Source of the DNA: Rhodocollybia butyracea
Lineage: Eukaryota > Basidiomycota > Agaricomycetes > Agaricales > Omphalotaceae
Direction: 5' to 3'
Assembly (NCBI GenBank): GCA_015501585.1
Contig: JADNRY010000004.1
Span: forward strand, 310,001-374,000
DNA length: 64,000 nt
Shown one piece after another: positions 25,085-45,341 of the stretch. Both the position numbers and the translations under genes were made by a program. The notes below the pieces were generated by a model. It searched no databases. It was not told where the DNA came from and saw nothing but the letters and a program-made list of their open reading frames with translations. Each line of letters opens with the position of its first letter. Position 1 is the stretch's first letter.

Positions 25085-25514
25085 CATCCCGACTTTTGCT
25101 GACTTTTGCTTTTGGTCTCGGCATCGGCCATGATGGATTTCTGGAAGGTTGAGGGAGTCTAGGGGCAGATATGGGAGGGTCATCTTCGGAATCGGAATCG
25201 GAGATGATGATAGGTCCTTTGGGAGCACTGTGCTCTGCACCCGCTGTTGTCGTTCCAGAACTTTACGCACAGGATTAGATCTAGCAACGACAGGAGCAGA
25301 TTTCGCCGGAGTACGTCTGAGGGGAGTCAGAGAAGCAGCTCGAGCTACTCGCAATGGGTGTTGAATATCTCTGATAGTCTTTTGAGCCCTATTGCCCAGA
25401 TCTTTGGGATAAGTATGTTCTTTTGATTTTAGTGGAGATTTGTTAAGGAGCCGTTCACGTTCCTTTTGTGGTGAGTCGCTATCGGAGGCTGAAGAATCGG
25501 AATTAATGGGGCTG
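25085..25514 (-). pseudogene. Left half of a duplicated XPG-nuclease C-terminal fragment
   Basis: This segment is colinear with 50,038-50,451 of the XPG/GEN1-like gene, with many substitutions and small indels: the CGGAATCGGAATCGGAGATG stretch, GATAGGTCCTTTGGGAGCAC, GTACGTCTGAGGGGAGTC, the leftover TTGAATATCTC.GAT.GTCTTT and AGGAGC.GTTCACGTTCCTTT. Homology stops exactly at AATGGGGCTG (25,505-25,514), where the large transposon begins, and resumes at 45,091. Only the low-complexity C-terminal tail is present, so it is not a gene. Confidence 0.9.
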
Positions 25515-25545
25515 TATGAGGTCTGTTTTCACCAAATATTTCGGC
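25515..25545 (+). repeat. Left terminal inverted repeat of the 19.6-kb transposon
   Basis: 31 bases whose core CCAAATATTTCGGC is identical to the right end read in reverse. Four mismatches fall outside the core. Confidence 0.9.
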
Positions 25546-25559
25546 ATTTTGTAGATGTA

Positions 25560-25690
25560 TTCAGCTTTTGATTGGAAACATCAATGGTTTCGGGTTCAGC
25601 CTGAGTCGGTGGATTTCGGGTTCAACCGGACGTAGTTCAGCTTCGACTTCATGATTCCCACTATTTTCCAATAACTTCAGCTTTTCAGAA
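25560..25690 (+). promoter_or_regulatory. Left subterminal TTCAGCTT motif cluster
   Basis: At least four occurrences of TTCAGC(T/C)T or close variants lie within 130 bases of the left terminus (atTCAGCTTttg, gTTCAGCCtg, gTTCAGCTTcg, cTTCAGCTTttc). The same motif is clustered, inverted, at the right end. Subterminal clusters of this kind are usual transposase-binding sites; that role is inference. Confidence 0.55.
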
Positions 25691-26139
25691 TTCTGCGAGA
25701 ATTGAACTCTACAAAGATTCAGTCACCCTTGGTACAGTATCCACAGTGTTTGAACCAACGTCTAATAGGCTATGATGTAATTAGCAAGCAATTTCCCCCA
25801 ATAGAGTGACAATTTCCCCCGCCTTAGAGACCTTTTCCCCCAGCTCCAATTTGCCTCATGTTTCGTATTCAAGCGTTTCAAATCTCAGCTCCAGCAGCTT
25901 CAGACTCAATAAGTTTTGGATATTCCCCCAGCGTTACACCGATTGTTTAAAAGGACCTGGAAATTCCATGCCGTGGTCACCTTCTTCCTTGAAAGATCAT
26001 TCGTTTATCACTTGCCTTTTTGTTCCTTCTTTGCGAGATTTTGTACTCATTCCCTTCATTGATATTGCACAAGTGAGTTTGACCAACGACGACTGTGACT
26101 TTTATCGTTTCTTTTGGCTGATATATTCTGTTGGCAGCG

Positions 26140-29100
26140 ATGAACTCTTTGAATCCCGACCAAGTCCTTTCTTTTTTGCGCCAAAATCCCTCCCTTGCAG
26201 CACAGTTCATGTCTCAACAACTGGTTGGCTCTCAGCCTTCGACTTTGCCACAGGTAGCACCCTCTCCTATGCCTCTCGCCCAGTCCGCTTTTCCTCCTCC
26301 GGCTCAGATATTCGGCACCCCTCCCCCTCCTACTCAGACATTCGGCGCCTCTCCCCCTCCTGCTCAGATGTTCGGCGCCTCTCCCCTTCCTGCTCAGACA
26401 TTCGGTGCCCCTCTCACTCAGACACCCACTCCACTTGCAACTGCCGCTCCCATTCAGACTGTTGCACAAACTTTTCCAGTTCAGGCTGCACCAATCAGGC
26501 CATACTCCAGCTTGAACATGCTTGCGAACATAGCCGGTCGTACACCAGCTTCCTCGAGCAGCCCCCCTGTTCAGACTACTATCAGTAGAGTCAATCAGGG
26601 GCGGTTGGAACATGCAGCTGCTTCCGGAGATGGTTCGTCGAGCGAAAGGAAGAAGATTTGAAAAAAGGGGAAGCATGCCCTGACACTTAGTGGACCACTA
26701 ACGCCTATTATCAATCACACACTTACAGAGGATGGGATGGGTGTAAACGTTGAAGTACTCATATGGTTTCCCATGCCAAACCGTCTGGACAGAAAGGTAT
26801 GGTTATAGCCTTTTTAATGACGGTGCACCTATTAACTTATTTATCCAGCAGCACAAGCTTCCTGACTCGTTTTATCACTATACCAGACATATGCCGGCCT
26901 TCAAAACGCTTTTGACATCTCTCGGTCTTCTTCGCATCTTCGAGAATTTACTTCTCACAACATGCGTCCAGGAATTTATGGGAAGATTGGTTGAACTGTG
27001 CACTGAGAGTGGGGTACAGTTTCCCAACGTCTCTGAGAGGCGTAGCCTGTTTTTGACTGAGAACATACTTCCTATTGAACTTCTCGGATTTTCTGGGAAT
27101 GGGCATATAAACAACAGTGCACGAACACCCAAACTTGTTACAGTAGCTGTTGGGGATGGTCTGACACTGAGCAATCTTATTCAAGATAGCAGACAATTTG
27201 CCATTGCCAGATACGTAGTCACTCCTGAGAATCGTTTCATTCTTCATTTCGGTGTGTTAATATTGAATTGCTCACCATCCATTGACTGACGTCGACTCTC
27301 TTACCTGACCGATTGCTTTCAGAGCCTTTGGATATCACAACCTCAGCAGTGGCTTCGTCTAGTACAAGTAAGTAGATCGAACTTGGCTTAATATTCCTTG
27401 GTTTCATTACATGTCTTCAGTTCTTCCCGCTTCCATAACTTCAGATGTACTGGGTGCGTTCTATTGTCAACTTTTTGTGGTGCATTCATTTCTCACCTAT
27501 TATGTCTAGCTCGCCCAGCTACTAGGTCCATGGTGACTCCGGCAGTAAGCGTGAGCTGTCTTCAATTTGATTTGATGTCAATACAATGACACATGCTTAG
27601 GTTGCTCCACCCATCGCGAAACTCTGGGAGTCCTTCTATACCCCTCCGCCTTGTTTGGAAACTTTACCCGAGTTTTTTTTCATATGAGCGGAAGCATTAT
27701 ATTTTCCGTGCAGTTTCGCAACAATACCGCAAAGTCTACAACGCAGATTCTCCAGCTGTCTCAATCAGGGGACCAACTTTGGAAGCAATGGCTGCACAGC
27801 TCATGGTTCATATGTGTTGCACTGTTCAAAATGAGGATTGGACTCCATTACTCTGTGAGAATCGCATGTTTATGCAGTGAGTTTTCCTTGCGTTCTTTTC
27901 TTGTTCAGTATCTTATGAGAACTTCACAGGGTTGTTCTCGATCAATTCGGAGAGGAACATCTTGTTTCTTCAGGTCATGGCTTAGAGGTTGAAGTCATGA
28001 ATCACATCTTCACACATCATCTTGAACAGAAATTGGGTGATTTCTGTGTTCCTTTCATTGAAGATTACATGACTTTAGCGACAATCCCGCTCCTTTCCAC
28101 TTTCTCGCTCTCTGATGTCAAACATGATGAGCTTCATCTATTTGGTGGGATTGTTGGCCTTGTGCTAGTTCATGGACAGTACCCATCAAAAATCAATCCT
28201 TTACTCTTGATTTATCTCCTCTCTGGATATGATCTTCGAGTTCTCACCAAGTTCTTGGTTATGGAGCATTTCCCAGAGCTTTACCGTACACTGAAAGCTT
28301 GGACTGAACTCGATCACACGGAAAATAACCTTTCAGCTTTTAACAAGCATTTCTTTACTTATCATCAAAATTTTGCAGTAAGGGCTCATACTTATTGACA
28401 GTCATGGATCACAGACTGATACTGGTGATAGATGTCATCCTTAAACCCTTGATCTGAAGAACTTCACTGTTCACTTGCTTGGACCATGCTTCATAACGCC
28501 ATTATAGGTGCTACTTCTGTTGAGCATCCTTATTTCCAAGCATTTTTGGAAGGTCTCAAGCTCCCCTGCAAGGGTATCTACGATTTAACTGAAGTGAGAT
28601 TCAGTAAACTTTAATTTTTTTTTTGATGTTGAGTTTATTCTTCTAGATCACTCAAAGCTTTTGCGGTGGAACCTCTGAGTTTGTTGTCAATGTACTCAAC
28701 ACTAATATCACCTCCTTCTCACAACTTCGCTTGAAGTTTTCTGAAAACATCAGTGAATCCAATCAACAAGCTTTGACTGAAGCCTTTGCTAGGACAGGAT
28801 CACACTCTTCCTTTAACACCTTGTTTCAGGAGTTCCTGGAAGGCGTTGGAGCTCCATCTCTTCCCTTGCTCGACAGTGTCAAAGGCCGTTTTCATGCTTT
28901 AATCTCTGACTCGCTGGATAATTTGAACCAACCATTCTATCGTATGAAGATGTTCTGCTGGGTGACTTCTGGAGCACCTAGAATCTTACTTGATGAGACG
29001 GAAATCCGAGTGAGTTCTCATATGCTTTACTTAAGGTGAAGCTTATTTTTTCAAGGTATGTCTCATTGATGATGACCACAGGGCATACGCTCCCAGTACC

Positions 29101-29313
29101 CTTAGTGAAACATCATGCTAACATCTCTTGTCAAACGACACTATTTCATTCAAGACTTGTACTCGATCCATGCTCATCCCAGTGTCGTACCTCATCAAAC
29201 TTTTGAGACAGTCATATGATGGAAACTTGGAACCTCACACCATCCAGGTTGCTGTTCATCACTGGTTATTGACCAAAATCTTGAGAGGAATAGGTTCTTA
29301 TACTGTTCATTAA
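26140..29313 (+). pseudogene. HECT-type E3 ubiquitin-ligase-like gene of the transposon
   Basis: The start is taken at the ATG at 26140 (MNSLNPDQVLSFLRQNPSLAAQF). The N-terminal third is a Pro-rich segment with a roughly 10-residue repeat (PPPAQ.FG.P), ending in a basic stretch interrupted by a TGA at 26659-26661. Later exons run QHKLPDSFYHYTRHMPAF.., FGGIVGLVLVHGQYPSKINPLLLIYLLSG (the N-lobe helix pair of HECT domains), GGTSEFVVNVL, FYRMKMFCWVTSGAPRILLDE, and finally the C-lobe motif ISFKTCTRSMLIPVSYLIKLLRQSYDGN with the expected active-site Cys, ending at 29313. HECT ligases accept ubiquitin on that Cys. The overall order fits HECT but similarity is low and several exons are out of frame, so it is called decayed. 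A ligase in a transposon could act on host repair or silencing factors; that is speculation. Confidence 0.62.
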
Positions 29314-29729
29314 ATAAGCTTGTTTCTGAACACTTGTTTCCACACACTCGTTACTTTATTTATTTTTACTACTCATCATATAGGTTCACTGTGTAAATAA
29401 CCCAAATTGATTGAAATTTTTCAGTCACTTAAATTACAATACAGCTATGGAACATCGCGGTGAACTGGAATATCATTGAGGAACTGGAATGTCATGGAGG
29501 AACTGGAATGTTGCGGAGGAAATGGGAAGTTGATGAGAGAACATGAAGCAGATGGGCATTGAGAAGACAGGACCAAAGAGAAGACACAGTTGGACAATGG
29601 TGCCAGGAGGGAAGAAGGTGCCGTGGTTTACCGGCAATGGTGGTTAATAGTGACGGATAGCGCTGTAAGCCGGCGTGAAGGTGGACTGTCATCGGGACAC
29701 GTAGTATGTGTTGGGCATATCCGACGTGT

Positions 29730-30830
29730 TGGGTGTATAAGGACAGGTCAGGTGTATAAGGACGGGTCAGGTGAGTTGGGCGCATAAGATGGGTCGGGCA
29801 TGTAAGAAGGGTCAGTCAGGGGCATAAGATGGATTGGGGGTGTAAAACAGGTCGGGGTGTGTAGAATGGGTCATGGGTGTAGGATGGGTCATGGGGTCAT
29901 GGGTGTAGGATGGGTCAGGGCGTGTAGAACGAGTCATGGGTGTGTGGCGGGTTGTGGGCGTAGGATGGGTCAGGTGTGTAAAACAGGTTGGGGCGTGTAG
30001 AACGAGTTGTGGCTGTAGGATGGGTCGTGGCCGTAGGATGGGTCATGGCCGTAGGACGGGTTGTGGCCGTAGATCAAGTCGTGGCTGTAGAACAAGTCGT
30101 GGGTGTAGGATGGGTCGTGGCCATAGGACGGGTTGTGGACGTAGAACGAGTCGTGGGCATAGAACAACTTGTTGGCATAGAACGAGTCTTCAGTGTAGAA
30201 CGGGTTGTGGGCGTAGGATGGGTCAGGGCATGTAAAACAGGTCAGGGCGTGTAGAATGAGTCGTGGGCGTGTGACGGGTTGTTGGCGTAGGTCGTGGGCA
30301 TAGAACAACTTGTCGGCATAGAACGAGTCTTCAGTGTAGAACGGGTTGTGGGCGTAGGATGGGTCAGGGCATGTAAAACAGGTCAGGGCGTGTAGAACGA
30401 GTCGTGGGCGTGTGACGGGTTGTCGGCGTAGGACAGGTTGTCGGCGTAGGACAAGTTGTCAGCGTAGGACAAGTTGTTGGCATAGGACAAGTTGTTGGCA
30501 TAGGACAAGTTGTCGGCGTAGGACAAGTTGTTGGCGTAGGACAAGTTGTCGGCGTAGGACAAGTTGTCAGCGTAGGACAAGTTGTCGGCGTAGGACAAGT
30601 TGTCGGCGTAGGACGAGTTGTCGGCGTAGGACGAGTTGTCGGCGTAGGACGAGTTGTCGGCGTAGGATGAGTTGTTGGTGTGGGACAGGTCATCGGCGTA
30701 GGACGGGTTGTCAGCATAGGACAGGTCAGGGCATGTAAAACGGGTCAGGGCGTTTAGAACGAGTAGGGGCATGCAGGAGAGTAGGGGTGTGCAGAACAAG
30801 TAGGGGTGTAGGCGTGTAGAATGCCTAAGA
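29730..30830. repeat. 18-bp minisatellite, about 1.1 kb
   Basis: The right part (about 30,416-30,720) is a tight array of some 17 units near GGCGTAGGACAAGTTGTC. The left part holds more divergent units (GTAGGATGGGTCGTGGCC, GTAGAACGAGTCGTGGGC). A block of about 133 bp around 30,160-30,295 is repeated at 30,295-30,430, showing higher-order duplication. Because 18 is divisible by three, several frames stay open on both strands and spell periodic peptides (for example SYADNL on the minus strand). I treat those as by-products, not genes. The bases 29,314-29,730 before it hold no gene I can support. Confidence 0.92.
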
Positions 30831-31022
30831 CAGACTTAGGATCTAAAGGTGGCAGGAAGGAGGAAAATGGTGTGCTTACCGGCCATAGAGCAAGTACAAT
30901 ACCTTGTATATGAGGCAGTAACAATGCTTTCAAGTGAGTAAGGCCAAGGGTCCCAGTCATGTTCAGATTATTTCTTTCAAGACACACAAACTTGAACATA
31001 GGTTCCATAAGCCAAAAGGCTG

Positions 31023-31558
31023 CATCAGGAAAAGCTGTTTTTGCCTAGGTGACCCCAGAGTGGCCTAAAGCAAACTAGGTGACCTATGAATCCTATGGAA
31101 TCCTAGGAATTTGGGCTTGTCCCTTGCCAGTCAAGGCTCTTGAGGATTGCCTAGGGTATCCTAGGCAAACCCAGGGCAAGCCTAGGTTTGCCCAGGTTTG
31201 CCCAGGTGTTCCCCAGGTGTTCCCCAGGAGCACCTGGGCAAACCTGGGCAAACCTAGGCTTGCCTAGGGAATCCTCAAGAGCCTTGACTAGCAAGGGACG
31301 AGCCCAAATTCCTAGGATGCCATAGGATTCATAGGTCACCTAGTTTGCTTTACCTGGGGAACACCTGGGGAACACCTGGGCAAACCTGGGCAAACCTAGG
31401 CTTGCCCTGGGTTTGCCTAGGATACCCTAGGCAATCCTCAAGAGCCTTGACTGGCAAGGGACAAGCCCAAATTCCTAGGATTCCATAGGATTCATAGGTC
31501 ACCTAGTTTGCTTTAGGCCACTCTGGGGTCACCTAGGCAAAAACGGCTTTTCCTGATG
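31023..31558. repeat. 536-bp fold-back repeat
   Basis: The left end CATCAGGAAAAGC..TTTTTGCCTAGGTGACC is matched in reverse by the right end ..GGTCACCTAGGCAAAAACGGCTTTTCCTGATG. The arms are about 200 bases of near-perfect inverted repeat, rich in CCTAGG and CCCAGGTTTG motifs, with a further partial arm copy between them. A single-stranded form would make a long hairpin. It has no coding capacity; apparent short ORFs in it are repeats of one another. Flanks share GCTG but no clean target duplication was found. Confidence 0.88.
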
Positions 31559-31915
31559 TGCTGGGCCCATTATGAACAAGATTGAGAGCCAGAAACTACC
31601 TAAGCCTGATGGCAGTCAGAACTAGAGAGATACAAGATTTAGAGACTTACCTGTTGATCTTGGGTTCAAGAGCCAGACATTGACAAAGAAGAGAAGAAGA
31701 AATCAGATAAAGGGTATAATAGAGGAAATAGACAACACAGCTTAGCGTCGTGGACAATACTAGCTTGCCCATAAACCAATCAGCAACTGAGCTAAGGAGT
31801 GAGGGTGAAGGATCAAGAGAAAGAAAAGACGCCTGAATTATAAAGGCAGTCACGTGATTAATTTGTTCCGTAAATACCGATCGCCGATCGCCAATTGTTT
31901 TTGTCGTCAATTATC

Positions 31916-34697
31916 ATGTCGTATATTTTGCTGCCTTATCCCAACTGTATCCCGCCTTTTCCTCAATCTTTGACAACAGAACTACAACAGTGTATTGCTG
32001 AACATTGATCTCTCCATTCAAGCTTCACTGAAGCTGCTCGGAAAACCCGAAATAGTTCACATCTAATATCTGAAACTGAGCTGGAGGTTTGGCGTTGACC
32101 TTGGCTGGAATCCTGGCTGGCATGTCCTGAAAAAGTATGCTACCTTATACTATTCTTCAAATGCTTACAGTTTAATAGATTGATGTAATCTTAGAATGGT
32201 TGGAAGAAGCCATCTATATCGGTGACTTCGAAGACATTACCAATACAGATACACTAAATGTTTTTCTGAGTGTTTTTGTACTGGTTTCTTATAACAAGAT
32301 GGACACAGCTATAATACAACTAGCAGCTTGGCAACGTTACATTGCCCTCAACGTGAGTTTCTACATTTTATATCTCATTGACCTCTTATTATTCAATCCT
32401 TCAGTTCTCTCATAGGCAAAGAAACTTAGTTTTGGATATCATCCATGAAGTGGATGATGAGCTTGATGAGCTTGATAAATCTTCTGTCTCAGAACCCTCA
32501 CAGAGTATATCAGAGTCAGAGTCAGGACATATATTGAGATGCCGACATTGGCAAAAGAGTTTGCAAGATAATCTTCTAAATGTGAGATAGGCTACTGTTT
32601 TTCAGGTGTATTTTAATCTCTATCTAGACCTCTGAGGACAGCACCATTGCCTTTGAGTCAAAGCAGCGTGTGGTAGCTTTGACAATACAAAACATGAAAA
32701 AGGTTACTTCTTCCATCTTCAAGACTTCAGAATTCATCAAGGCTGTTGTTGTAAGAGATTTTCTTTATACTAGTTGATGAATTGAAGGAAATTACAGAAA
32801 TCGGGTTTGGCCACAATGATCCTTGAGTTAAGTCATCCAGCGTATGGTTATCACCATTCCTAAGATCCTCACCATGCATGTTTACTATGGCTTCATGGTT
32901 TTGGCTTGGTATTGGGAGACGTTTTAGATTGGTGGACTCCAAATGTATGGACTTCCGAAGCGGACATACTATTATCCAATAATCCTGTCTCAAAATATGA
33001 TACTGTGAGCATTCCGTTTCAGCCTGATATTTGTATAGCTTGAATTATAATTACATTTAGAACAACCATAAACAAATGATCAAGGGAAAGGATTTATTCA
33101 ATGCTTTTGCTAAAAATCCTCGCCTTATCCCCCACATAGCTAATCCAGCCGCAGTTTATTTTTTGTGTTCTGAAGAGAACTTCACGGCAGCTTGGGAGCA
33201 GTGGTTATCATGGTCATTGGATGCAGCTGGATACAAGGTGCCGTTAAACCATTTATTTTTTGGCTAAGAGACTTATTCATATCACAGGTTTATGATATGA
33301 AAGTGCCGGATCTTTATCAAAGCACCATGAAGTATCTCAATGAAATTGTGGAAAACACACATAACCTTTCTGGAATTCGGAAAACCTGGGATCCTACAAC
33401 TCTTTTGATCGTCGAACAAACTCTGGTACTTTGCAACTTGCTCAAAGACTTAGATGCCCAGGTACATGATCCTGAGGTGAAACATTGCTCCAAATGCACA
33501 GATCAGCCTACAGAAAAACGTTGTGTGCAACATATAAATGTTACATTAAATGAAGAGCCAGGGTTCATATCATGATGGAAAGGTGTTGGCATTTCCAAAG
33601 TACCAACAGAACAACAGATGAAACCGCGACAGGTAAGTAGCTAGAGTATCTTTTTACATTTTCATTGAATATTCAATAAATTTTAGGGACATAAAGCGAT
33701 GCATGGTGTTGCACGGATTGTACATCCTGATAAGATCGGGGCCCATGGCTTAAAGCGTATAGCCGCTGATGAAGAAGTTCTACAGCGATGTGGAAAACAG
33801 ATCTTCAAGTTATTTAGGAATGATGAACTCATAAGATCTGGCTTGTATTTTTTTACCTCGGTTTATTGAGTATATTTACAGTGTGATTTTGTGTGGTACA
33901 ATGCATTTTCCGATAGTACTTTTGGGGAAATCTTGCAGTACTCACAAAGTGCACTAGGAGTTCAGCCAGTTCATCAAGGAAGACAGTTCGCATTTTGGAC
34001 CACTGGTCAAATGATTCTGTTTGGTGCTCGGCAACCTTCTGGTGGACGGCAGGCAGACCATTACACTTCTTATGCTGGAATTACCGCTGAAACATACAAG
34101 GGAATAATCATTCTCTTTGAACAAGCAAAGGTATCTGCAGATTTCATATCATCTTTTCTCATTGACTTATCTAATCAGTTGTCTGCTATGCTCATGCAAA
34201 CTGCACGAGCAATTCACCCTGCGCTAATCAACAAAATCAATGAACAATCAAAAGCATGTGAACGTGTAGGTTTATCTGGATTGAATCTCTTCAACTGTAA
34301 AGGTTATACTGCTCCTCAACACTGTGATGATGACTGTACACCATCTCTTGGTGCACAGTTTGAACTTCAAGCAGAGCAAAAATGGAGTGAATTTGCCTTT
34401 TGCGCTATTCAGTATGGATATTACATTGAGTCCAGAAGAAATACACTATGGTACGCTTTCCTTTCTTTGGATTTCTGGTTACTTTTTAATCACTTCACAG
34501 GAGTTTTGATTCAGGACTTCTCCATGGCACCATGCTTCCTTCAGAAAAAACAGTATTACACCTCCGCGGTGGAGCAGCTTCCAGTGAAGGAAGTCATGTA
34601 ACTACTTGTAGGCAAGACCAGAGTTGGGCTGAACATAATCAACAAGTCCGTCATAATTATTATCTCTGTGAAGCAGCCTGGAGAAATCGCCAGTAAT
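31916..34697 (+). pseudogene. TET/JBP-like 2-oxoglutarate/Fe(II) dioxygenase gene of the transposon
   Basis: The start is taken at ATG 31916 (MSYILLPYPNCIPP); it ends at TAA 34695-34697 after CEAAWRNRQ. Many short exons. The C-terminal exons carry the double-stranded beta-helix features of fungal TET/JBP-type enzymes: NLFNCKGYTAPQHCDDD (iron ligands His-x-Asp), LGAQFELQ.., then after a short intron NTLWSFDSGLLHGTMLPS (second iron His in LLHGTMLP) and HLRGG (a candidate 2-oxoglutarate-binding Arg). The upstream text FDSTFGEILQYSQSAL and GGRQADHYTSYAG is of the kind found N-terminal to this domain. Such enzymes oxidise 5-methylcytosine or thymine in DNA; fungal copies are known mainly inside KDZ transposons. 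Three in-frame TGA codons (32006, 32096, 33573) interrupt it. Assignment rests on motif reading only. Confidence 0.6.
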
Positions 34698-34913
34698 CAA
34701 CCAATATACAACATCTTTAATTAATAAAAACATTTGAAGTGTTAATTGAATGTAGGAGTGATGCTTGTTATTAAAGGTAGGTAAGTAAGTAGTAAAGTAT
34801 GGTAAAAGAGTGGTATACGTGCTGTTTGAATGAAGGTCACTTGTAGAGCTTTGATCTGGTCAAGAAAAGAGTATGAACTCTGTAAGCTATTCGATCGAAT
34901 TCTCTATATCACT

Positions 34914-35910
34914 TCAGAAATCCTTCATATGCTTTTGGCATAGACGAGCTGCATCTTGTTCAATAGCATTCTTGGATTGAGGATCGAGTTGCTGCTTTGT
35001 AGCAATAAATCCAGGGTCTCCCCATAGGTATACCATTCGATGCCAAGTTTTCAAAGCAGTGGGCATCAAGGATTTTTCTGATCGAAGAATTAATGTCAGC
35101 CAGGATGTGTGGAAATGAAACAGAAAGGATATTACCCTGAGATGAGCTGAGTAAAACTCTGTTTTTCCAAGATTTACTTTGCACCGCATCTTCAGCCCAG
35201 GAGAAAAGATTATGCTTTTTTATATATTCCTTTGGATTCCAGCCCAGTTCAGCTAGGATATCAGAAAAAGACTGCATACGCCCATTCATATAAGTGTAGC
35301 TTTGAGATGCAAGGCTACCTTTTGCGGAGCGATATCCAAGAGCGTGGAGTAGGTGACCTGCTCTTTGACAGAGCTGAACTATTTCAAATAAAGAAGCATT
35401 AACACCACAATGTTGCTCAAACTGTACCGACAGATATGGAATGTCAAAGCCTGCTTCTCGAATAGTATTCGCAAGGGGTGCAGAGATTTGGATGCGTGAA
35501 TTATCTGTAGATAGCCAATGGTTCTCAATAGACGCATCAGATACTGACATCGATGAGAAAGATGAGTGAAGTGGAGGATGTGGACAATGTCGGTCTACTG
35601 TTTGATATGGATGAGAGACCAAAGCAACACATTCCCGTCGGGAATTAACCATTCCTTCTCTAGGTGATGAGAGATTCTGGTTTGAAGGAGAAAACTCGGA
35701 GGCCAAAGCAATATGGTCTCGTTGGGAGCAAACAATGCCTCCTTCAGATGATGGGAGATTATATTGACTTGATGAAAGAGAGACTTGCACCGCATAAACA
35801 GGTGCATTAATTAGAATTATGATAAAGTGTTGATGATGGATAAATGGAATGAATGGAGAACGCTCATATGAGGTAAGAAACGATTGGACAGATATAGAGC
35901 TAAAATCCAT
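34914..35910 (-). CDS. Uncharacterised intact ORF of the transposon, about 312 residues
   Basis: Two exons: 35136-35910 and 34914-35077, joined by a GTAAT..GATCAG intron of 58 bases. They sum to 939 bases with no internal stop. I do not recognise the family. The N-terminal 100 residues are Ser/Pro-rich with two degenerate repeats (SQYNLPSSEGG / NQNLSSPREG). The C-terminal 200 residues look globular: ANTIREAGFDIPYLSVQFEQ, LFEIVQLCQRAGHLLHALGY, ILAELGWNPKEYIKKHN, then LKTWHRMVYLWGDPGF and a final helix rich in Gln/Lys. It is transcribed against the three other genes of the element and is the only one without lesions. The sequence just upstream of its start was replaced by a fold-back arm (35,934-36,103), so its original promoter may be lost. 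Confidence 0.6.
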
Positions 35911-35933
35911 AGCCAGGACATCTGTGAACAGAT

Positions 35934-36103
35934 GGGCAAACCTGGGCAAACCTGGGCTGACCTAGGCTTGCCTAGGAAATCCTCAAGAGCCTTGACTGGC
36001 AAGGGATGAGCCCAAATTCCTAGGATGCCATAGGATTCATAGGTCACCTAGTTTGCTTTAGGCCACTCTGGGGTCACCTAGGCAAAAATGGCTTTTCCTG
36101 ATG
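35934..36103. repeat. Solo arm of the fold-back repeat
   Basis: 170 bases nearly identical to the right arm of the fold-back element at 31,023-31,558: GGGCAAACCTGGGCAAACC.., CCTCAAGAGCCTTGACTGGC, GGTCACCTAGGCAAAAATGG, ending CTTTTCCTGATG. It separates the unknown ORF from the transposase, so at least one copy moved or was copied inside the transposon. Confidence 0.9.
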
Positions 36104-36122
36104 TACACATTTATTTTATCAT

Positions 36123-37818
36123 TTGATACTTGGTTTATTCATTGGAGTTGGACAGCATTCTGAGACCTTTGTAGATTCAACGGAATGGCAAACTCTCCGT
36201 ATGAATCTACAAATGATGCTGACTGATGTCCGCGCTCTTTACAATGACTATAACAAAAGGTCTCATCAAGGTCGTCCAATAATCGTTTCTCATGACCGTA
36301 CAGGACAGCGTGGTTGCCCCATACTATTATCAACTGTGATTTCTTGAATTGGGCATATACTCAATGTACAACATCTGGTATTGGGCATTTTTTGGGTCTC
36401 AGTTGTAACACTGTTAGGTGTTCCTTACTCGAGTATGGACTTGCTCCATCAGGTAATAATCCCTTTCCTTCCAATGCAAACAGTGCAGAACAACCTGAAG
36501 ATGAAGATAATGGGGATCTCCTTGATCCTGCACCATCTGACACTCATCCTCCAGCTGAAGAACTTCTGTCAGATGTTCAGAATGTGGCGTCGTCTATAGC
36601 TTCTTCATCAGGTTATTTGTCCAATATGTCTGATGGAGATTTGGACAGTATAACACGTTTGTTACGGTCTCATTATCCACGAGCTGGGATTCGAATCTTA
36701 AATGGCATGCTTTGGAGCTTAGGCCACATTCTACCTCGAGAGCGCATTCAGGAATCACTTCGCCGCATTGATCCAGTTCACCGAGTCTTTGAACATATCC
36801 GTATACAAAGGCATCACTACAACGTGCCGGGTCCAAACTCGCTTTGGCACCATGATGGTCATCATCATATGTTTTTGCCATTTTTTATAAACTTATGTAT
36901 GTTGACTTTTTTTTTATGTGTATAGGACTCATACAATGGGGAATTGTTATTCATGGTTTTATTGATGGTTATTCTCGGATGATCACTGGAATGAGGGCAA
37001 ACAACAACAATCGTTCACCAACAGTACTTTCCTTATTTATCTCTGCTGCATATCAGTATGGACTTCCATTACGCGTTCGAGGTGATCATGGAATAGAAAA
37101 TATCTGGGTTGCAGCTTTCATGGAACATGTCAGAGGCACTGGGCGAGGGTCCTATATCTGGGGCCGGTAAGAAATCTCATTTTCTTTAGTGGCAGACGTT
37201 CATTTTTCTGCAGTTATGTTCACAATGTGCGGATTGAACGGCTATGGGTGGACGTATCACATTCAAACATCTCTCAACACTGGAATGATCTGTTTACTAT
37301 GTTGGAGCTTCATCATGGTCTTGATATTGACAATGTCACCCATATCTGGCTGTTGCACCATCTCTTTCTAGGTACTATTAATGATGCAATAGCATTTTGG
37401 GTTGGAGGCTGGAATCAACACCGGATTCAATCACAGCAAGATGGACCCAACCGCAGCCCTGAAGATATGTTTGGGTTTGATATGCTTGTTCGTGGTATCT
37501 GGGGTGATGCAGTTGAGCAATATGCCATGTCGGATGAAGAGCTAGAGGTGTTTGGTGTTGACTGGGAGGGGCTTGAAGATGAAACACTTCTTTGAGCATG
37601 AGGAAGGGACGAGTACCTGGCATGGACGGCATGGCCCTCCACCAAATTTAAATGAAGTGCACGTTGACCCTCCTTCTAGTCTACTTACAGCTGACGAGAC
37701 TCAAAACCTTGATGATGTTCTTCAGCACATTTCCCAGAGCTCTGATCAAGCTGATGTAGTCCATCTTTGGACTACTGCTCTGGCATATGTACGTACATTA
37801 CATCCTGGCAAGTTTTGA
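36123..37818 (+). pseudogene. IS3/retroviral-integrase-type DDE transposase (damaged)
   Basis: Order of parts: an N-terminal helical segment (TLRMNLQMMLTDVRALYNDYNKRSHQGRP), a helix-turn-helix (GIGHFLGLSCNTVRCSLLEYGL), an acidic linker, a second helical region (LDSITRLLRSHYPRAGIRILNGML..ERIQESLRRIDP), then the catalytic core. Catalytic acids are visible: Asp in LWHHDG, Asp in VRGDHGIEN and Glu in SVHNVRIERLW, with 34 residues between the last two, as in D,D(35)E integrases. The first Asp stands just before an intron (GTCATC..GTATAG, about 36,855-36,924). A further intron precedes SVHN. Two frame changes break it: one near 36,313 (GGTTGCCCCAT) and one near 37,592 after EDETLL. It is the only transposase-like gene in the element and presumably mobilised it. 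Confidence 0.8.
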
Positions 37819-38227
37819 GTAATATACAGTGTATATAGCTATTTTTCCAGTACAAATAAAACCCGATGCGAGAATGCAAGGTTGAATGCAAGAACATAAG
37901 GAACACGAGAAACGCAAACACTTGTTCTTCACTGGAAAAGTTGAACCACCCTCTTTCCCTGTTGCAAATGTGATGCCGCACATTGATGGTGCTTTGCCTC
38001 TCTGGAAGGACTGCAAGGAGGACCAGTGAGCTATCAATGTCATTTTATTTTCTTGCCTCTCTTTTACTCAAGAAAACTTAAAATTACCTTACTTACATAT
38101 GTTATCACTCCAACGCATGGACATTGACCTTTCTCATACCAAGAACAATGCCCAAGAAAGTCATTGAGGCTATACAGAAGTGCTTGTGTAGACGGGCCAG
38201 AATACAAGAGCCCAAGATTGTGAGGGC
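37819..38227. other. Non-coding stretch downstream of the transposase
   Basis: About 400 bases with no supported gene. Mostly ordinary sequence that passes into the 12-bp minisatellite at 38,228. Confidence 0.4.
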
Positions 38228-38440
38228 ATGCGCGAGGGCATGCGCGAGAACACAAGAACAAACATGAGGACGAACATGAGAACAAACATGAGAACAAACA
38301 TGAGAACAAACACAAGAACAAACATGAGAACAAGAGAACAAACAAGAGAACAAACACAAGAACATGAGAAAGAACATGAGAATAAACGCGAGCACGGCGG
38401 AAGGAAGGGCGGATGCAAGAACACGAGAATCAGAACATGT
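38228..38440. repeat. Short minisatellite with 11-12 bp units
   Basis: Units close to AACATGAGAACA (variants with CACAAGAACA) repeat from about 38,240 to 38,400. Period 12 keeps frames open on both strands, giving Cys/Leu/Phe-rich shadows on the minus strand. Confidence 0.8.
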
Positions 38441-38687
38441 ATGATGCAAGGGGAACGATGAATGCACGAACTCAAGAATAGAAGAGTCGTACATACCTAC
38501 CTAGACTAATATCACGCTAGATTTATATGGCCAGACTACTTCCCTGCCGGCGAAGATTTGCAAGTACTGGCAAGAAAATATATTAGGGCACAGATCAACA
38601 CTTCCGAGGCTACATGATCATCTCTTGCTATCGTGCTACCAATAAACACCAGTGACTACTTTAGCCACACCAGTCACACAGACTCAT

Positions 38688-39109
38688 TATTAGAGGTTGA
38701 TCAATAAGGCAGACAGTGTACTCTACACTGTTAGTTGGCTCTGGTCACACAGACACAGAGGAGACGAAGGTCCAGACACAGACACAAACAGAGAAAACAC
38801 AACTTGATATTTTACAAGTACATACAGTCTTAAATACGAGTCCAGAGAGTTAATAATAAGTACAACGCGTGAAGCGTTCACAGACGGAGTGAGAGTAATA
38901 AGACGAGAGTGGAATGGAGCACAAGGTAAGTAAGTAAGAATAGACGAGAGCACGATAATAAAGCAATGGCGAGTGGGCAGGATAAAGATAGTACAACTAG
39001 TTCACATACCAGTAGTTACAGCGAGAGAGAACATTCCATAGATAGTAACGAAGTGGGAAGACTGTTCCATAGTAAGTATAATGAAGTTGATAGATGACGA
39101 AGTCCAACA
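38688..39109 (-). repeat. 3' LTR of the Copia element
   Basis: 422 bases, same length as the 5' LTR. Preceded on the coding strand by a purine-rich tract (GGTTTGAGGAGGAG) that serves as polypurine tract. Confidence 0.95.
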
Positions 39110-39123
39110 CTCCTCCTCAAACC
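39110..39123 (-). other. Polypurine tract of the Copia element
   Basis: On the coding strand GGTTTGAGGAGGAG abuts the 3' LTR, the position expected for plus-strand DNA priming. Confidence 0.7.
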
Positions 39124-42100
39124 TTTGCAAGTCCCATAGACGATGCGAAGTGTTTGGCTTTTGCTGAAGTCAAAGCCTTGGTGAAAATGTCTGCCGTCAT
39201 GTCCTCGGTTGGACAGTAAGTAAGTCGAATGTTACCTTCTTCAATAGCATACCGAATGAAATGATACTGTATGTCGATGTGTTTGGTCCGTGCATGAAAC
39301 CTGTCATCTTTCACTAAAGCAATGGCTGATTGGTTGTCCGAGTGAAGTGTGATAGGTCCGGCGATTGGAGTGAACAACTCGGAGATGAGGTTTCGAAGCC
39401 AAATTGCTTCCTTGGCTGCATGCGTGAGAGCGACGTACTCTGCTTCTGTAGTGGATAGAGAGATGGTGTCCTGTCGCTTTGATGACCATGATACTGCTCC
39501 GCCATTAAGCATAAAAACGTATCCTGATATGGCATGTCTGTCCTCTTGGGACATTCCATTGGCGTCCGTAAATCCCTCGACAGGATGTTTCTGCACTCCT
39601 CCTGAAGTTAGCCAATAATCCCGGGTATATTTCAGATAAGCGTATACACGCCTAAGTCCGTTCCAATGAGCGATGCCTGGATTCTGTGAGAATCGGGCAA
39701 GAATGGCAACCGTATAGGTGATGTCGGGTCGTGTGGCAATGGAAAGATATTGGAGAGCACCAAGTGCTTCTCGGTAAGGCTTATCCCGCATGGCGGCGAT
39801 ATCCTCCACAGTCTGTGGCATCTGGTCTTTGGTGAGATGAATATGGGGGTCGAAAGGAATGGAGAGTGGCTTTATGTCAGAGAATCCGTAGCGGCTAAGA
39901 ATAGCATCAATGTATGATCGCTGTGATAAACGGATAGATCTGCTGTGAAGTGATCTCTGAATCTCGATTCCAAGTAGCCAATGAATTTCGCCCTGATCTG
40001 TGACCTCGATAATCGCGCTGATAGATTTCTTCAGCTGTGCCACAATTTCCAGAGTTTTGGTAACCAATGTCATATCATCCACATGGATGAAAATGATTGT
40101 GAACGGGTTGGTGCGATAGAATACGGCATGATCAAAATCTGACCGTTTGAAGCCTAGCTTCATCATGATTTCTCTGAATCGCAAATACCATCTTTGACCT
40201 GCTTGTTTAAGTCCGTACAAGGCAAGTTTGAGTCGAAGTACTTGTCCGGGTTTTACACCTAGATTAATGCCGGTTGGTGCCTTCATGTAGATCTTTTCGC
40301 TGTCATCAAGTTTGCCATAGAGATATGCTGATTTGACATCCATCTGATGAATGATCCAGCTGTGTTCAGCTGCGATGCTGAGAATAGTTCTGGCTGATGC
40401 GAGTTTGGCAACTGATGCGAAAGTTTCATCTGGAAAATAATCAACGTCTGGGATTTGATTAAATCCTCGCACCACAAGTCTGGCTCTGTGACTAGTAAGC
40501 TGTCCTTGTTCATCTTTCTTGGTCCAATAAACCCATTTGGATGTGAGAATGTTTGCATCCGATGGTGCCGTGACTATATCGTAAGTTTCACGCTGGTTGA
40601 GTCTGGATATCTCCTCGTTCATGGCTTCTTGCCATTTCGGCCAGTCAGGTCGGCGCATAGCTTCTGCAACTGATAAAGGATCTGATTCGATTTCAGATGT
40701 GACTTGTGCAAGCGATGCTGTAAGGTATCGGAGTTCCGTGTTACCCTCTGCTGATCCTTCAATGATATCCCTGATTTTCTGAGTGGGTTGCCTGACACGT
40801 TTTCCGGTAAGTTGTTCCGGCGGGATGGGCTCTGCAATTTCGTCAGGTACAGGAATAATAGGCTGTTCCGACTCAGTGACTGATGTTTCCAAATTTTCCA
40901 AATTTCCATCCTCCTCCTCAGTGAGTTGGATCTGCCTGTTGGAAATTGTTACGTTCCATTCCGTGGTAACTGTTCGTCGCTGTGGCCAATAGATAAAATA
41001 TCCATTAGATTCCGTGTCTATACCTATCCATCTTCCTTCTTGTGCCTGTGGTTCGAATTTTCCTGGCTCTTTCTCCTTCTTTACATACACTATGCTCCCA
41101 AATATTTGAAAGTTAGAAATGTCGGGTTTTTGATTGAACCGTTTTTTGTATGGTGTCGCCATATTTATTCCCTTCTTTGGTGTCCTGTTCCAAATATAAA
41201 CCATGTACTTCATCATAAATCCCCATAGCCATTTTGGGAGTCCTGATGAAATGATTAGACTTCGTACTGCATTCAGTAGAGTCCGATGAGTGCGTTCCGC
41301 TATGCCGTTATGTTCCGGAGTGTCATGTACCGTTAATCTCCGCTGGGTGCCAAGTCGTTCCAGGTACTGATTAAATTCTCGGCTAAGAAATTCTCCCCCT
41401 CGATCAGAGTGAAGAATTTTAACAGTGATGCCATATTGAGTCTGGAGATTGGTTTGAATAATGACGTACTGGGTGAATGCTTCATCCTTGCTTTTCAGCA
41501 ATGGTTCCTCTAACCATAGAGTCGCCTCGTCGACTATGGTGAGGGCATAAGTGCAACGGTTGATAGTCTGAACTGATGCGGGTCCCCAGACGTCCATGTG
41601 AAAAACATCTCCGTAATTCTCCGCTCGTGGAGAAGACTGTAATTTGGCAATCGGAAATCTTGCTGCCTTAGCTAGCAAGCATGTACGGCATTCCGGCTCG
41701 TCCATGTGAGATTTATCCAATCTCATCCCATTGATCTGGTTGTGTGCGAATAAGTGCTTAATATAAGCATAGTTCTGATGGCCTAAGATGCAGTGGGCGT
41801 CATAGAGTGATACCAGTCGATCTTTGGCAACATAAGCATATTCTTCCATGGGAATCTGGTAGAGTCCATGGATCTTCGGAATATGTGCAACGATCCTGTT
41901 GTTGGGGTCAGTCATGGTGAGTAAACCATTCCCAATGTGGATATTGTATCCATCATCATCGAGTTTTCCCAAGGAAATAAGAGTGTTGGGAATGTTAGGA
42001 CATAGGAGGGCGTTATGGAGCGGGACGTTTCGAGTATTGCCATGGTTAGCAATTGGAAAATCCAAATGAAGCGTACCTGCCATGCTAGAATTAAAAGTTC

Positions 42101-43940
42101 CGGCATTGGCTGCTTGAATGACTTTAGTCGGAATAGACTTTAGATCTTGGAGGCTGTCCTCCATAGGAGTCATGTGGCTCGAGCATCCGGAATCAAATAG
42201 TATAGCCCCTCGGCTATGTGCTCCCATCATTGCTGTTTCGTGTTCATCAGCAATATCATTGAAATCAAATGTGAGATATGCTTCTGTTGTATTTGGGGAC
42301 ATCTGGAAAGATGCCGTCGAGTTTCCAAGCTCGGTGTAGGATTTGGCGGGAGGAAAGACGAAGCTGGTGTCCGATGACAACTCAATGGCTGCCCAAGATG
42401 ATTCTGGGACTTCTTCAATCTGTGATGAAGATGCGGTTTCCTTCCCCTTTGGCCTAGATCTCCAATTTCCATCTGATTTCTTCCCCTCTTTCGGCTCGTG
42501 AGTTTCCCTACTCTCTTTGGCTTGATTAGCCTGTGGCCGTTTAGGCGATGGACATGTGCTCGCAAAATGTCCTTTTCCTCCACAATTAAAACATGCGGAA
42601 GTAGACCTGTTAGGTCCGTTTGGTTTCGAGTTTCCTCGGCCCCTAGAAAATCCCCTTTGAGAAAATCCTCAACCTCGGAATCCACCTCGACCTCGGGAAT
42701 TTCCCGCATAGTTAGCCGATTCCTTCTTCCCCTTGTTGTGATGACTAGCACTACGTACGTGTCCCTGTGCTTCTGCACGAATGGTGGCAATCAATTCCTG
42801 TGTTGCCAGTTTCTTGTCGGTTCGAGATGTGACTACAACAAGTGCATTTATGGTGGGTCTGAATTGGTTGGGGATAGAGGATATGATGGTGTTGTTGAAC
42901 ATTTCATCGCTAAATTCGATGCCGCGGGTTTCAAGACTGTCTCAGATTTCCAACATAGTGTCTAGGTGTTCGTTAACCCTAGATGGTTCATAGCAACGCA
43001 TGGTGTGAAGCTGTCTCTGCAGATGTGATTCCGTGAGCGCATTTTTGGAGTCAAAATCAGCGATTAAATTTGTCCACACATCACAAGTGTTGGTATAATT
43101 TCTATACCTTCGAAAAATGCCATCCGATAATCTGCCAATTAAAGCATTTAGCAAATCTGTATCAGATGATTTATCTCCTGTATTTCCGGCTTCTCGTGTG
43201 TCTGTTGCTTCATGGGGGTTCCATGTGAGGTACTTGCCATAATTTATGGACTTTGCAGCTAATTCTACTCAACTTTTCCATGTGTCCCAGTTCGATCCAT
43301 CCGGTTTAAGGGTGGTGACCTTGTCAAATGCTTTCAGTGCTTTGGACATCTCGTCGTCAGATGAATAGCTATCTGATTCTTCTTTGTCTGATGATCCTGG
43401 ATCGCCTCCGTCAGATGGTGGTGAGCTGTGAGGTAAGTCTGATTTTGGGATCAAAGGAGTATCGTGATCTGATGGTATTGGTGATGGAGCTGGTGGGGGC
43501 GGCGGTGGTGGCTGCGGCTTTGGCTGTGTTGGTTGTGATTGAGAGGCCTGTGATGCTTGTGATGATGCCCTTGATATTTTCTGGGCTGGCTGCTGTGGAG
43601 GTGATGTTGGTGCCGCTGGTTTGGGTACTGCCGCTTTCTCCTGGGATTTTTCAATTCTGTGTGCTATTCCAGATGTTATTTCTGGTATGTCTTCTGTAGG
43701 ACTGGGTATGTCGTATCTGTTTGGACAGATTTTCCGGTTACAAAATTTGTATTTTCCTGTCTGTAAGCTGTTGTAACAATCTTGGTATTTTGTTGGAATC
43801 CAAAGATGTGGTCTTAGGGCACAAGGAAGCTCTGGGTTGTTGGCGGCAACTGGCTTAGTTGTGGCTGAAGCTCGTGTGGATGGTTTCGATGAGCTGGGTT
43901 GTTGTGACATCAACAATGGTGTCTGGGATGGTGGCGTCAA
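39117..43940 (-). pseudogene. Copia gag-pol polyprotein with three in-frame TGA codons
   Basis: One continuous frame of 1,608 codons from ATG 43940 to the stop at 39117, interrupted only by TGA at 43269-43271, 42942-42944 and 42669-42671, all in the gag part. From 42668 down to 39117 it is open. Domains in order: Pro/Ser-rich gag N-terminus, gag (DLLNALIGRLSDGIFRRYRNY), zinc knuckle CFNCGGKGHFASTC, protease DSGCSSHM, integrase zinc region (H..LGHQNY..C.TCLLAKA) and core (FHMDVWGP, HSDRGGEF, HNGIAERTHRTL), reverse transcriptase (MDVKSAYLYGKL, FIHVDDMTL) and RNase H (GFTDANG, STTEAEYVALTHAAKEAIWL). Each TGA would be CGA before one C-to-T change. Pol itself shows no lesion. Confidence 0.95.
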
Positions 43941-43945
43941 TGGTT

Positions 43946-43964
43946 AGGCTCGGGGCCCATAACC
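43946..43964 (-). other. Primer binding site of the Copia element
   Basis: Directly inside the 5' LTR the coding strand reads AGGTTATGGGCCCCGAGCC, resembling the anticodon-region half of initiator-methionine tRNA used as primer by many Copia elements. Confidence 0.6.
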
Positions 43965-44386
43965 TATTAGAGGTTGATCGATAAGGCAGACAGTGTACTC
44001 TACACTGTTAGTTGGCTCTGGTCACACAGACACAGAGGAGACGAAGGTCCAGACACAGACACAAACAGAGAAAACACAACTTGATATTTCACAAGTACAT
44101 ACAGTCTTAAATACGAGTCCAGAGAGTCTATAATAAGTACAACGCGTGAAGCGTTCACAGACGGAGTGAGAGTAATAAGACGAGAGTGGAATGGAGCACA
44201 AGGTAAGTAAGTAAGAATAGACGAGAGCACGATAATAAAGCAATGGCGAGTGGGCAGGATAAAGATAGTACAACTAGTTCACATACCAGTAGTTACAGCG
44301 AGAGAGAACATTCCATAGATAGTAACGAAGTGGGAAGACTGTTTCATAGTAAGTATAATGAAGTTGATAGATGACGAAGTCCAACA
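43965..44386 (-). repeat. 5' LTR of the Copia element
   Basis: 422 bases, about 98.8 percent identical to the 3' LTR by my count (five substitutions). Confidence 0.95.
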
Positions 44387-44391
44387 CTCAT

Positions 44392-44934
44392 CCCATTACA
44401 TTCACGGTAGTGGTTAGAGGCACTCGGGCCTTCTAAGTACTCAGTACCTACTATTAAAGGATACTATAAATAAAGTAATGAAAGATACTTCAAGTCTTCA
44501 AATTCTCTGCGACGCCTAAAATAGCGCCCAAAATAGCGCCCAGTTCATGTGGTCACAGTTGAAGTTGAGTGCAGGTTGAGCACAGGCAGAATGTACTTAA
44601 CATACAAACTGGGTCAATTGAGGCTGGACTTATTGAATGAGATCCCAACTGCTGAACCGGAAGTATCACGAGGGGAAATATTCTCAATATGGACCAAATT
44701 GTAGGGAAAAGGGGTGAATATCAACCCAAAATGAGAGAGAAATGCAAGCCAATAGCCCAAGCTCAACCTGACGTCGCCAAAATTGAGGCAGTACCATTCC
44801 ATTCAAAAACAGCACTTGTTCAAACAGATCTTACTCCATTGTCTATGATAGTTCATTAGTTGAATAACATACAACGTAGGATTGACATATCGAAGTAGGA
44901 TTAAATATCACCTAATCACAAGCAGAAGCAGTTA
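44392..44934. other. Right non-coding arm of the 19.6-kb transposon
   Basis: About 540 bases between the Copia target duplication and the right subterminal motif cluster. Only short unconvincing frames; no gene is supported. Confidence 0.5.
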
Positions 44935-45059
44935 TCGTCTCAAAGCTGAAACTATCACGCCACAAGCTGAGCACCGAAGCTAGTAAAAAAGCTGAATCTG
45001 AGAGTCGAACATGTGACTTGGAGCTGAAGTCGAAACCTTAAGCTGAATTTGAAGCCGAA
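44935..45059 (-). promoter_or_regulatory. Right subterminal AAGCTGAA motif cluster
   Basis: Five or so AAGCTGA(A/G) or GAGCTGAA motifs lie between 44,943 and 45,050, the reverse complement of the TTCAGCTT cluster at the left end. The symmetric arrangement supports a role in transposase binding. Confidence 0.55.
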
Positions 45060-45090
45060 GCCGAAATATTTGGCGAAAAGAGACTTCAAA
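45060..45090 (-). repeat. Right terminal inverted repeat of the 19.6-kb transposon
   Basis: Contains GCCGAAATATTTGG, the reverse complement of the left core, and ends CTTCAAA next to the GGGCTG duplication. Confidence 0.9.
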
Positions 45091-45275
45091 GGGCTGACTT
45101 GACAACTTCGCTTCTGAGGGGAAGGCGTCTGGGGTGAGCCGGGAGAGGTGACGCAGAGGCAGAGAAAGGATCACGGCTCTCGAGTTCACTACCTTCAGTC
45201 GGAGAATCCTCCAATGACATTGGGACGGGTTGAAAGGAGGTTTTTCGGGGGAAGAAAATTCATCACGTAACCGCG
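45091..45275 (-). pseudogene. Right half of the split XPG-nuclease fragment
   Basis: Colinear with 50,446-50,634 of the XPG gene: ACTTCGCTTCTGAGGGGAAG, CACTACCTTCAGTCGGAGAA, TCCTCCAATGACATTGGGA and the end at GTAACCGCG, after which sequence similarity stops. Together with 25,085-25,514 it forms one duplicated fragment cut in two by the transposon. Confidence 0.92.
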
Positions 45276-45341
45276 TAGTAAGTAAGCGATGTATCTACTA
45301 TTGGGTTGCTAATTGCTGAGTGGCTACAAACATTGTCAAGC

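Follow-up and report, generated by a model that had tools for sequence, protein, structure and literature searches.

A decayed IS3EU/GingerRoot-like transposon of Rhodocollybia butyracea carrying TET/JBP-like and HECT-like genes, and recurrence of this gene set in a divergent element family

We analysed a 64,000-nucleotide stretch of the Rhodocollybia butyracea genome (GenBank assembly GCA_015501585.1, contig JADNRY010000004.1, positions 310,001 to 374,000), which is called the window below and numbered from its first letter. It belongs to contig C716 of the 95.6-Mb genome, the other contigs being likewise labelled with C-numbers. Positions 25515–45090 of the window are a single element bounded by terminal inverted repeats (TIRs), not a pile of nested pieces; it carries a HECT-like gene, a TET/JBP-like dioxygenase gene, a fourth open reading frame (ORF) and an integrase-type transposase gene. 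In our view this element is probably a large cut-and-paste transposon of IS3EU/GingerRoot type, now decayed, whose cargo is selected on the element, whose TET gene has been exchanged between transposon families, and whose cargo would act against silencing.

The left 31-bp TIR (25515–25545, plus strand, beginning TATGAGG; TATGAGGTCTGTTTTCACCAAATATTTCGGC) and the right one (45060–45090, minus strand; TTTGAAGTCTCTTTTCGCCAAATATTTCGGC in reverse complement) agree at 27 of 31 positions and are flanked by the target-site duplication (TSD) GGGCTG at 25509–25514 and 45091–45096, exactly as the original prediction, made from the letters of the window, had described. The same prediction held that the flanks rebuild a host sequence. 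This proved correct, as the joined flanks (25200–25514 and 45091–45300) match intact relatives of the target site at 50397–50500 of the window (plus strand; 91%) and on C787 (90%). The former, which lies outside the element and serves for the empty-site comparison, is found 5 kb downstream of it. A whole-genome scan tolerating up to three mismatches, which more diverged ends would escape, returned seven left ends and seven right ends, left ends being detected again at three mismatches in the right-end scan; reversed patterns used as a control gave no match in either scan. All six non-allelic insertions having both window-family ends are flanked by perfect 6-bp duplications that differ from one another (GGGCTG in the window, AATCTC on C694, GATGTA on C1049, CAAACA on C494, AAAAGT on C964 and GTGACC on C531).

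A second full copy, 14,928 bp in length, sits on C694 at an unrelated site and contains the HECT-like, TET/JBP-like and integrase-type genes plus the fourth ORF; the first three lie inside the element ends in both copies. Searching the genome with the TIRs for further full copies, as had been proposed, thus yielded one with the same ends, its own 6-bp duplication and the same genes. At C694:115638–115651 (L011) the left terminus is repeated (14 bp) between the duplication AATCTC and the element, which may be left over from end processing that was aborted or repeated. A copy on C111 has only the left end, the contig stopping inside the element; it is 99.6% identical to the window locus including the left flank and looks like an allele of it. 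Gene-less relatives with both ends occur on C1049, C494 and C531 (about 1.05 kb each) and on C964 (6.4 kb), and a relative on C2 has lost its left end. Since the gene-less relatives have only the outer 0.4–0.45 kb in common with the window copy, at about 81–87% identity, we regard them as a related subfamily.

Judged by its reading frames, the window copy is a dead, decayed member of a real family, and the C694 copy is nearer to intact. An exon-by-exon check against C694 revealed stops or frame changes in all three main genes. The HECT-like gene (26140–29313, plus strand) is broken by the deletion of one exon, a frameshift and stops, about 470 bp of it being gone relative to C694. A further 1 kb or so is gone at 35933–36103, where the transposase gene (36103–37818, plus strand) and the fourth ORF (34960–35932, minus strand) start; the former is frameshifted and lacks its first exon, and the latter is truncated. 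With a single exception, a frame change in the TET-like gene, the C694 exons tested are open. In the C694 gene models the first join of the HECT-like gene, like one of those in the TET-like gene, is tentative, the HECT-like stretch 2038–2590 was spliced by eye, and the first exon or exons of the transposase are only partly modelled. The original prediction of a self-mobile module therefore holds in part: C694 and C683 (see below) speak for one mobile element, but the window copy is not self-mobile because its transposase is frameshifted and truncated.

Pfam assigns the transposase to PF24764 (rva_4; E 1.2e-66), with a match to rve (9.7e-7) below the curated cut-off of that family, and its catalytic spacing, read in C694, is D56D34E (DD34E type). 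A KDZ (Kyakuja/Dileera/Zisupton) or Plavaka transposase was ruled out, PF24764 and rve being the sole transposase families recognised in the element by Pfam; none of the 144 genome-wide matches to the KDZ transposase lies in it. The expectation of an integrase-type DDE enzyme rather than a KDZ transposase was thus correct. Based on PF24764, the DD34E type and the 6-bp TSDs, which are present in all six window-family insertions and in C683 (CGACCC), the transposon can be classed as IS3EU/GingerRoot-like. It resembles IS3EU/GingerRoot (PMC10045372) in its 6-bp TSDs, in a TA at the left end (at both ends in C683, whose termini are TAT...ATA) and in its integrase-type DDE enzyme, in which Pfam recognises no zinc domain. 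It differs in its large cargo and in the right end of the window family (termini TAT...AAA), which ends in AA where TA is stated for IS3EU. This departure counts against the class assignment and is the reason for our wording "-like"; the likeness is one of traits. The fourth ORF, whose C694 relative is BDP27DRAFT_1419695 (503 aa), belongs to no known family, its two matches being its own C694 gene model (P0032) and an unnamed fragment of 98% identity (P0033).

In the R. butyracea genome, searches turned up 51 loci for the transposase, 26 for the TET-like gene and 12 for the HECT-like gene. A transposase locus is found no more than 20 kb from 15 of the 26 TET-like and eight of the 12 HECT-like loci, where about 2% would be expected in either case, and seven of the 12 HECT-like loci lie as close to a TET-like locus. 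With the window family and its allele removed, 12 of 23 TET-like and five of nine HECT-like loci remain near a transposase and four of nine HECT-like loci near a TET-like gene; the loci are not all independent because other allelic pairs (perhaps C683/C1115) were kept in these counts. The clearest independent case is an 18,972-bp element on C683 with TIRs TATGACGG.../TATGGCGG... and the duplication CGACCC, which represents a very divergent family and carries a HECT-like gene (plus strand), a TET-like gene (minus), a trace of the fourth ORF (minus) and a transposase gene (plus). Because so divergent a family, with other TIRs, carries the same genes, the gene set does not appear to be a nesting accident, and its presence in a distantly related element of the same genome suggests a common anti-silencing toolkit. 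Apart from HECT-like and transposase genes, C430 has weak matches to the TET-like gene (26% identity) and to the fourth ORF (28%), the fourth-ORF traces being weak in both C683 and C430. On C605, a transposase and a TET-like gene lie between inverted repeats, and a duplication CCAGGA(A) was recognised visually.

A gene with HECT-like motifs, recognised by eye, is located beside the C605 transposase at about 67.3–70.5 kb on the minus strand (L033). Relatives of it occur at five more TET-like/transposase loci (C494, C852, C943, C794 and C844), which suggests that the pairing of TET-like and HECT-like genes may extend past the HECT-like genes of the first search; Pfam gave no match for this gene or for nine ORFs of C605/C683.

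The TET gene has evidently been exchanged between transposon families, to judge from blocks of similarity. On C972 a TET-like block is 81% identical to the window family at the DNA level over 2.9 kb. It ends close to the start codon on one side and to the stop codon on the other, and there are some additional upstream matches; the adjoining HECT-like gene is closer to that of C683. A corresponding block on C1195 is 83% identical to the window family. The TIRs of the window family and of C683 were not found in the examined parts of C972 and C1195. The TET-like and HECT-like genes follow each other in tandem in the window family; C683, C430 and C972 have them in convergent orientation. TET transfer among other transposons has been described (Kojima 2025, PMC12730594).

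Comparisons between families point to purifying selection on the TET-like gene, with a dN/dS of about 0.2 (0.18 for C694 versus C1195, 701 codons, dS 0.47; 0.20 for C694 versus C972, 654 codons, dS 0.60). For the HECT-like gene the value is about 0.09 (C683 versus C972, 540 codons) with dS near saturation. By contrast, the TET-like exons of the window copy versus C694 (dN 0.019, dS 0.009) indicate no constraint after insertion. The differences between these copies over 9294 sites amount to 169 transitions and 16 transversions, among which 134 CpG losses fall to the window copy and 13 to C694, the direction being read from CpG state with no outgroup. Excess CpG loss is the usual mark of methylation-driven decay, and the pattern suggests that the family is methylated, i.e. 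a target of methylation. It does not demonstrate that the TET-like enzyme protects the element or that evasion works, and the evasion of CpG methylation silencing put forward in the original prediction would still be an interpretation.

The TET/JBP-like dioxygenase gene (31916–34698, plus strand) has 11 exons as modelled on C694, and both its HxD motif (34320–34328) and the second histidine (HGTMLPS, 34523–34543) are present in the window DNA. Its counterpart among public gene models, BDP27DRAFT_1357349 (P0003), has a different frame at the HxD motif. Pfam, NCBIfam and PDB sequence searches, with the single protein and with the alignment, returned no relevant match, and the TET assignment therefore rests on the predicted fold and the Fe(II) triad. 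The predicted fold is the TET/JBP fold, matching TET2 and also CMD1, and the triad H568, D570 and H619 is invariant in 15 proteins (of 21, six partial gene models including P0003 having been dropped). Structure prediction on the cargo, suggested by the original prediction as a check, thus upheld a TET/JBP-like dioxygenase, but failed for the HECT-like protein. With CcTET of Coprinopsis cinerea, CMD1, NgTET and human TET2 the dioxygenase shares predicted fold and triad; it differs from them in that identity in the aligned part is 7–13% and its long N-terminal part is unmatched. Kojima (2025; PMC12730594) defines a type PE, with HxE for HxD, and a type AG, with Gly or Ser at +5 and Asp at +11. 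Here HxD is found in all 19 relatives with a readable motif (two of the 21 have none), and, counted ungapped from the first histidine, Ser is at +5 in one of 19 and Asp at +11 in none.

The HECT assignment is the weaker of the two; it is plausible, and we call the gene HECT-like rather than file it as HECT. The label relies on motifs, on weak matches in profile comparison and on names in UniRef, since Pfam, NCBIfam and PDB searches with the single protein and with the alignment gave nothing relevant. Like HECT E3 ubiquitin ligases, the protein shows both lobe motifs, correctly ordered, together with a TC...P pattern; its putative active-site cysteine (FKTC) is encoded in the last exon (29056–29313), and, with FKTC aligned to the canonical motif by eye, its distance to the next proline is canonical in all ten rows kept (one short row dropped). 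Against profiles of four host HECT domains, the N-lobe motif scored 23.7 with hhalign (68 columns, P 0.038, probability 1.4%), compared with less than 20 for all 20 column shuffles, 15.7 for the reversed profile and 14.3 for the TET-like profile. The C-lobe motif scored 17.9 over 11 columns with both profiles trimmed (P 0.015, probability 3.0%; best of 60 shuffles 16.7), and both matches are in register with HECT domains. Ten relatives were found in Lentinula raphanica and Gymnopus androsaceus among the 7997 best candidates scored; by their UniRef names, two of them are HECT domain-containing and another two uncharacterized, the remainder having no name among the matches listed. Unlike HECT ligases, the protein is not detected by the HECT domain profile PF00632, which is absent from the one spliced protein and its ten relatives; 22 PF00632 matches lie elsewhere in the genome, none of them at the 12 HECT-like loci.

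If these assignments are right, the transposase would cut at the TIRs and insert the element into target DNA by joins staggered by 6 bp, and the same enzyme could mobilise the short relatives that keep only the ends. The TET-like enzyme would oxidise 5-methylcytosine on element copies, allowing the element to stay expressed, and the HECT-like protein may be an E3 ligase carried as cargo, acting either on a host silencing factor, which it would remove or reprogram, or as a regulator of the transposase; selection on the element would keep the gene set. It is tempting to go further and to speculate that mushroom IS3EU-like transposons possess a conserved two-armed anti-silencing module, one arm oxidising element methylcytosine and the other ubiquitinating a host silencing factor (e.g. 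a maintenance methyltransferase or its partner), with arms exchanged between families. We put this forward tentatively, as a possibility that we hold to be rather doubtful.

Several observations weigh against our interpretation of the element as a transposon with selected, anti-silencing cargo. The TET-like gene did not protect the window copy, which decayed; the direction of the CpG changes is taken from their asymmetry, without an outgroup; for 11 of the 26 TET-like loci, no match to PF24764 lies within 20 kb; no ends were found for C430, where there is no convincing TIR pair within 62–79 kb, or for C972 in the part examined. Nor has the HECT-like protein any relevant Pfam, NCBIfam or PDB match; its predicted model is of low confidence (mean pLDDT 43), the fold not being obtained, and the hhalign probability for HECT is only 1–3%. 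One may thus ask whether the dioxygenase and ligase genes are passive cargo, picked up by an IS3EU-like transposon and useless for transposition, as the movement of TET genes between transposon families as blocks (also reported in PMC12730594) and the broken cargo genes of the window copy would allow. We think this improbable: the low between-family dN/dS of both cargo genes and their presence together in a family whose TIRs differ point to selection as the reason for their retention. An assemblage of distinct elements nested in one another, a view to which the truly nested Copia and CATCA..TGATG insertions described below lend some colour, is rejected by the recurrence of the same genes between the same ends at the independent, Copia-free site on C694 and between different ends on C683; we give it hardly any credence, and the original prediction of one element stands.

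Two further alternatives concern the cargo proteins. The TET-like enzyme might make a modified base, as do JBP, CMD1 and phage TETs, that marks or protects the element without demethylation, and a partner protein would read or regulate it. The predicted fold, which alone does not tell the product, agrees both with TET2 and with CMD1, the maker of 5gmC. The Asp linked to type AG by Kojima (2025), missing at +11 from all readable relatives, is also in keeping with such an activity. A second modification enzyme is not recognised in the element by Pfam, though two of the four proteins have no known family, and we regard this alternative as unlikely, if a little less so than passive cargo. Somewhat greater, though still low, is the chance that the HECT-like protein is a transposon protein of another fold (e.g. 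a transposase partner) with a chance cysteine motif and not a ubiquitin ligase. The absence of PF00632 from the protein, its relatives and the 12 loci, the failed model and the low hhalign probabilities fit this view, whereas the in-register lobe scores above those of the shuffles, the canonical FKTC–proline distance and the two HECT-named relatives speak for a ligase. Of the predicted HECT-like gene, then, the motifs, weak profile matches and names are in place, but neither a PF00632 match nor a confident model.

TET/JBP genes in IS3EU DNA transposons with 6-bp TSDs were reported in December 2025 from Pucciniales (rusts) and Tuber indicum (Kojima 2025, PMC12730594), so that the view that no element with such a set had been described no longer applies in full. 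These elements and ours share an IS3-like DDE enzyme, 6-bp TSDs, TIRs of more than 30 bp, an internal TET/JBP gene and TET exchange between families. The published ones carry an alpha-kinase gene, with TET of type PU or PE (HxE) between alpha-kinase and transposase, whereas the Rhodocollybia element has HxD, a HECT-like gene and the fourth ORF. An alpha-kinase as third gene was rejected, contigs C716, C694, C683 and C430 having no match to one. Fourteen alpha-kinase matches were obtained in total, of which those on C583 and C850, contigs that have no PF24764 match, were not entered; one of the 12 loci entered, on C712, is within 20 kb of PF24764. This proximity of alpha-kinase and PF24764 (C712:26332 and C712:37826) resembles the arrangement in rust IS3EU elements.

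For Agaricomycotina, the text of the same paper gives Kyakuja, Zisupton, EnSpm, Plavaka and Helitron2 as TET-carrying lineages and does not list IS3EU, and the words HECT and ubiquitin are absent from its main text. KDZ TET elements likewise place TET/JBP genes on transposons in Agaricomycetes; they differ from the Rhodocollybia element, which has no KDZ transposase, and their TSDs are 7–8 bp (PMC12730594) rather than 6 bp. Nor is the marker Asp of CcTET found here at the ungapped position. Published work already names IS3EU in mushroom or bracket-fungus genomes, and the titles and abstracts of the papers retrieved contain no description of a transposon combining TET, HECT-like and IS3EU-like components. 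As far as these searches reach, what is new is the pairing with a HECT-like gene and the finding of such an element in an Agaricomycete, the TET-carrying IS3EU kind being already known.

Should our interpretation hold, the TET-carrying transposons of mushrooms would include more than the Kyakuja, Zisupton, Plavaka, EnSpm and Helitron types known so far, and distant families would retain a second gene, of ubiquitin type, alongside TET. It would then become testable whether transposons counter DNA methylation by two routes simultaneously, for which the C694 copy, being nearer to intact, points to the proteins of interest and the CpG decay between copies offers a natural record of methylation.

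The remaining features are not part of the transposon proper or vary between its copies. A Copia long terminal repeat retrotransposon (38688–44386, minus strand; target duplication CTCAT), with a long open frame on the minus strand, is nested in the window copy, accounts for 5.7 of its 19.6 kb and is absent from C694. Also absent from C694 is an insertion of about 0.5 kb at 31024–31558 with ends CATCA..TGATG and a 2-bp duplication TG; these termini are those given for PlavakaB elements (PMC12730594). The sequences at 31024–31558 and 35933–36103 are short, mutually related and variable between copies. A short-unit tandem-repeat array between the HECT-like and TET-like genes (approximately 29890–30770) differs in C694, and a second one, at approximately 38100–38500, is likewise variable between copies.

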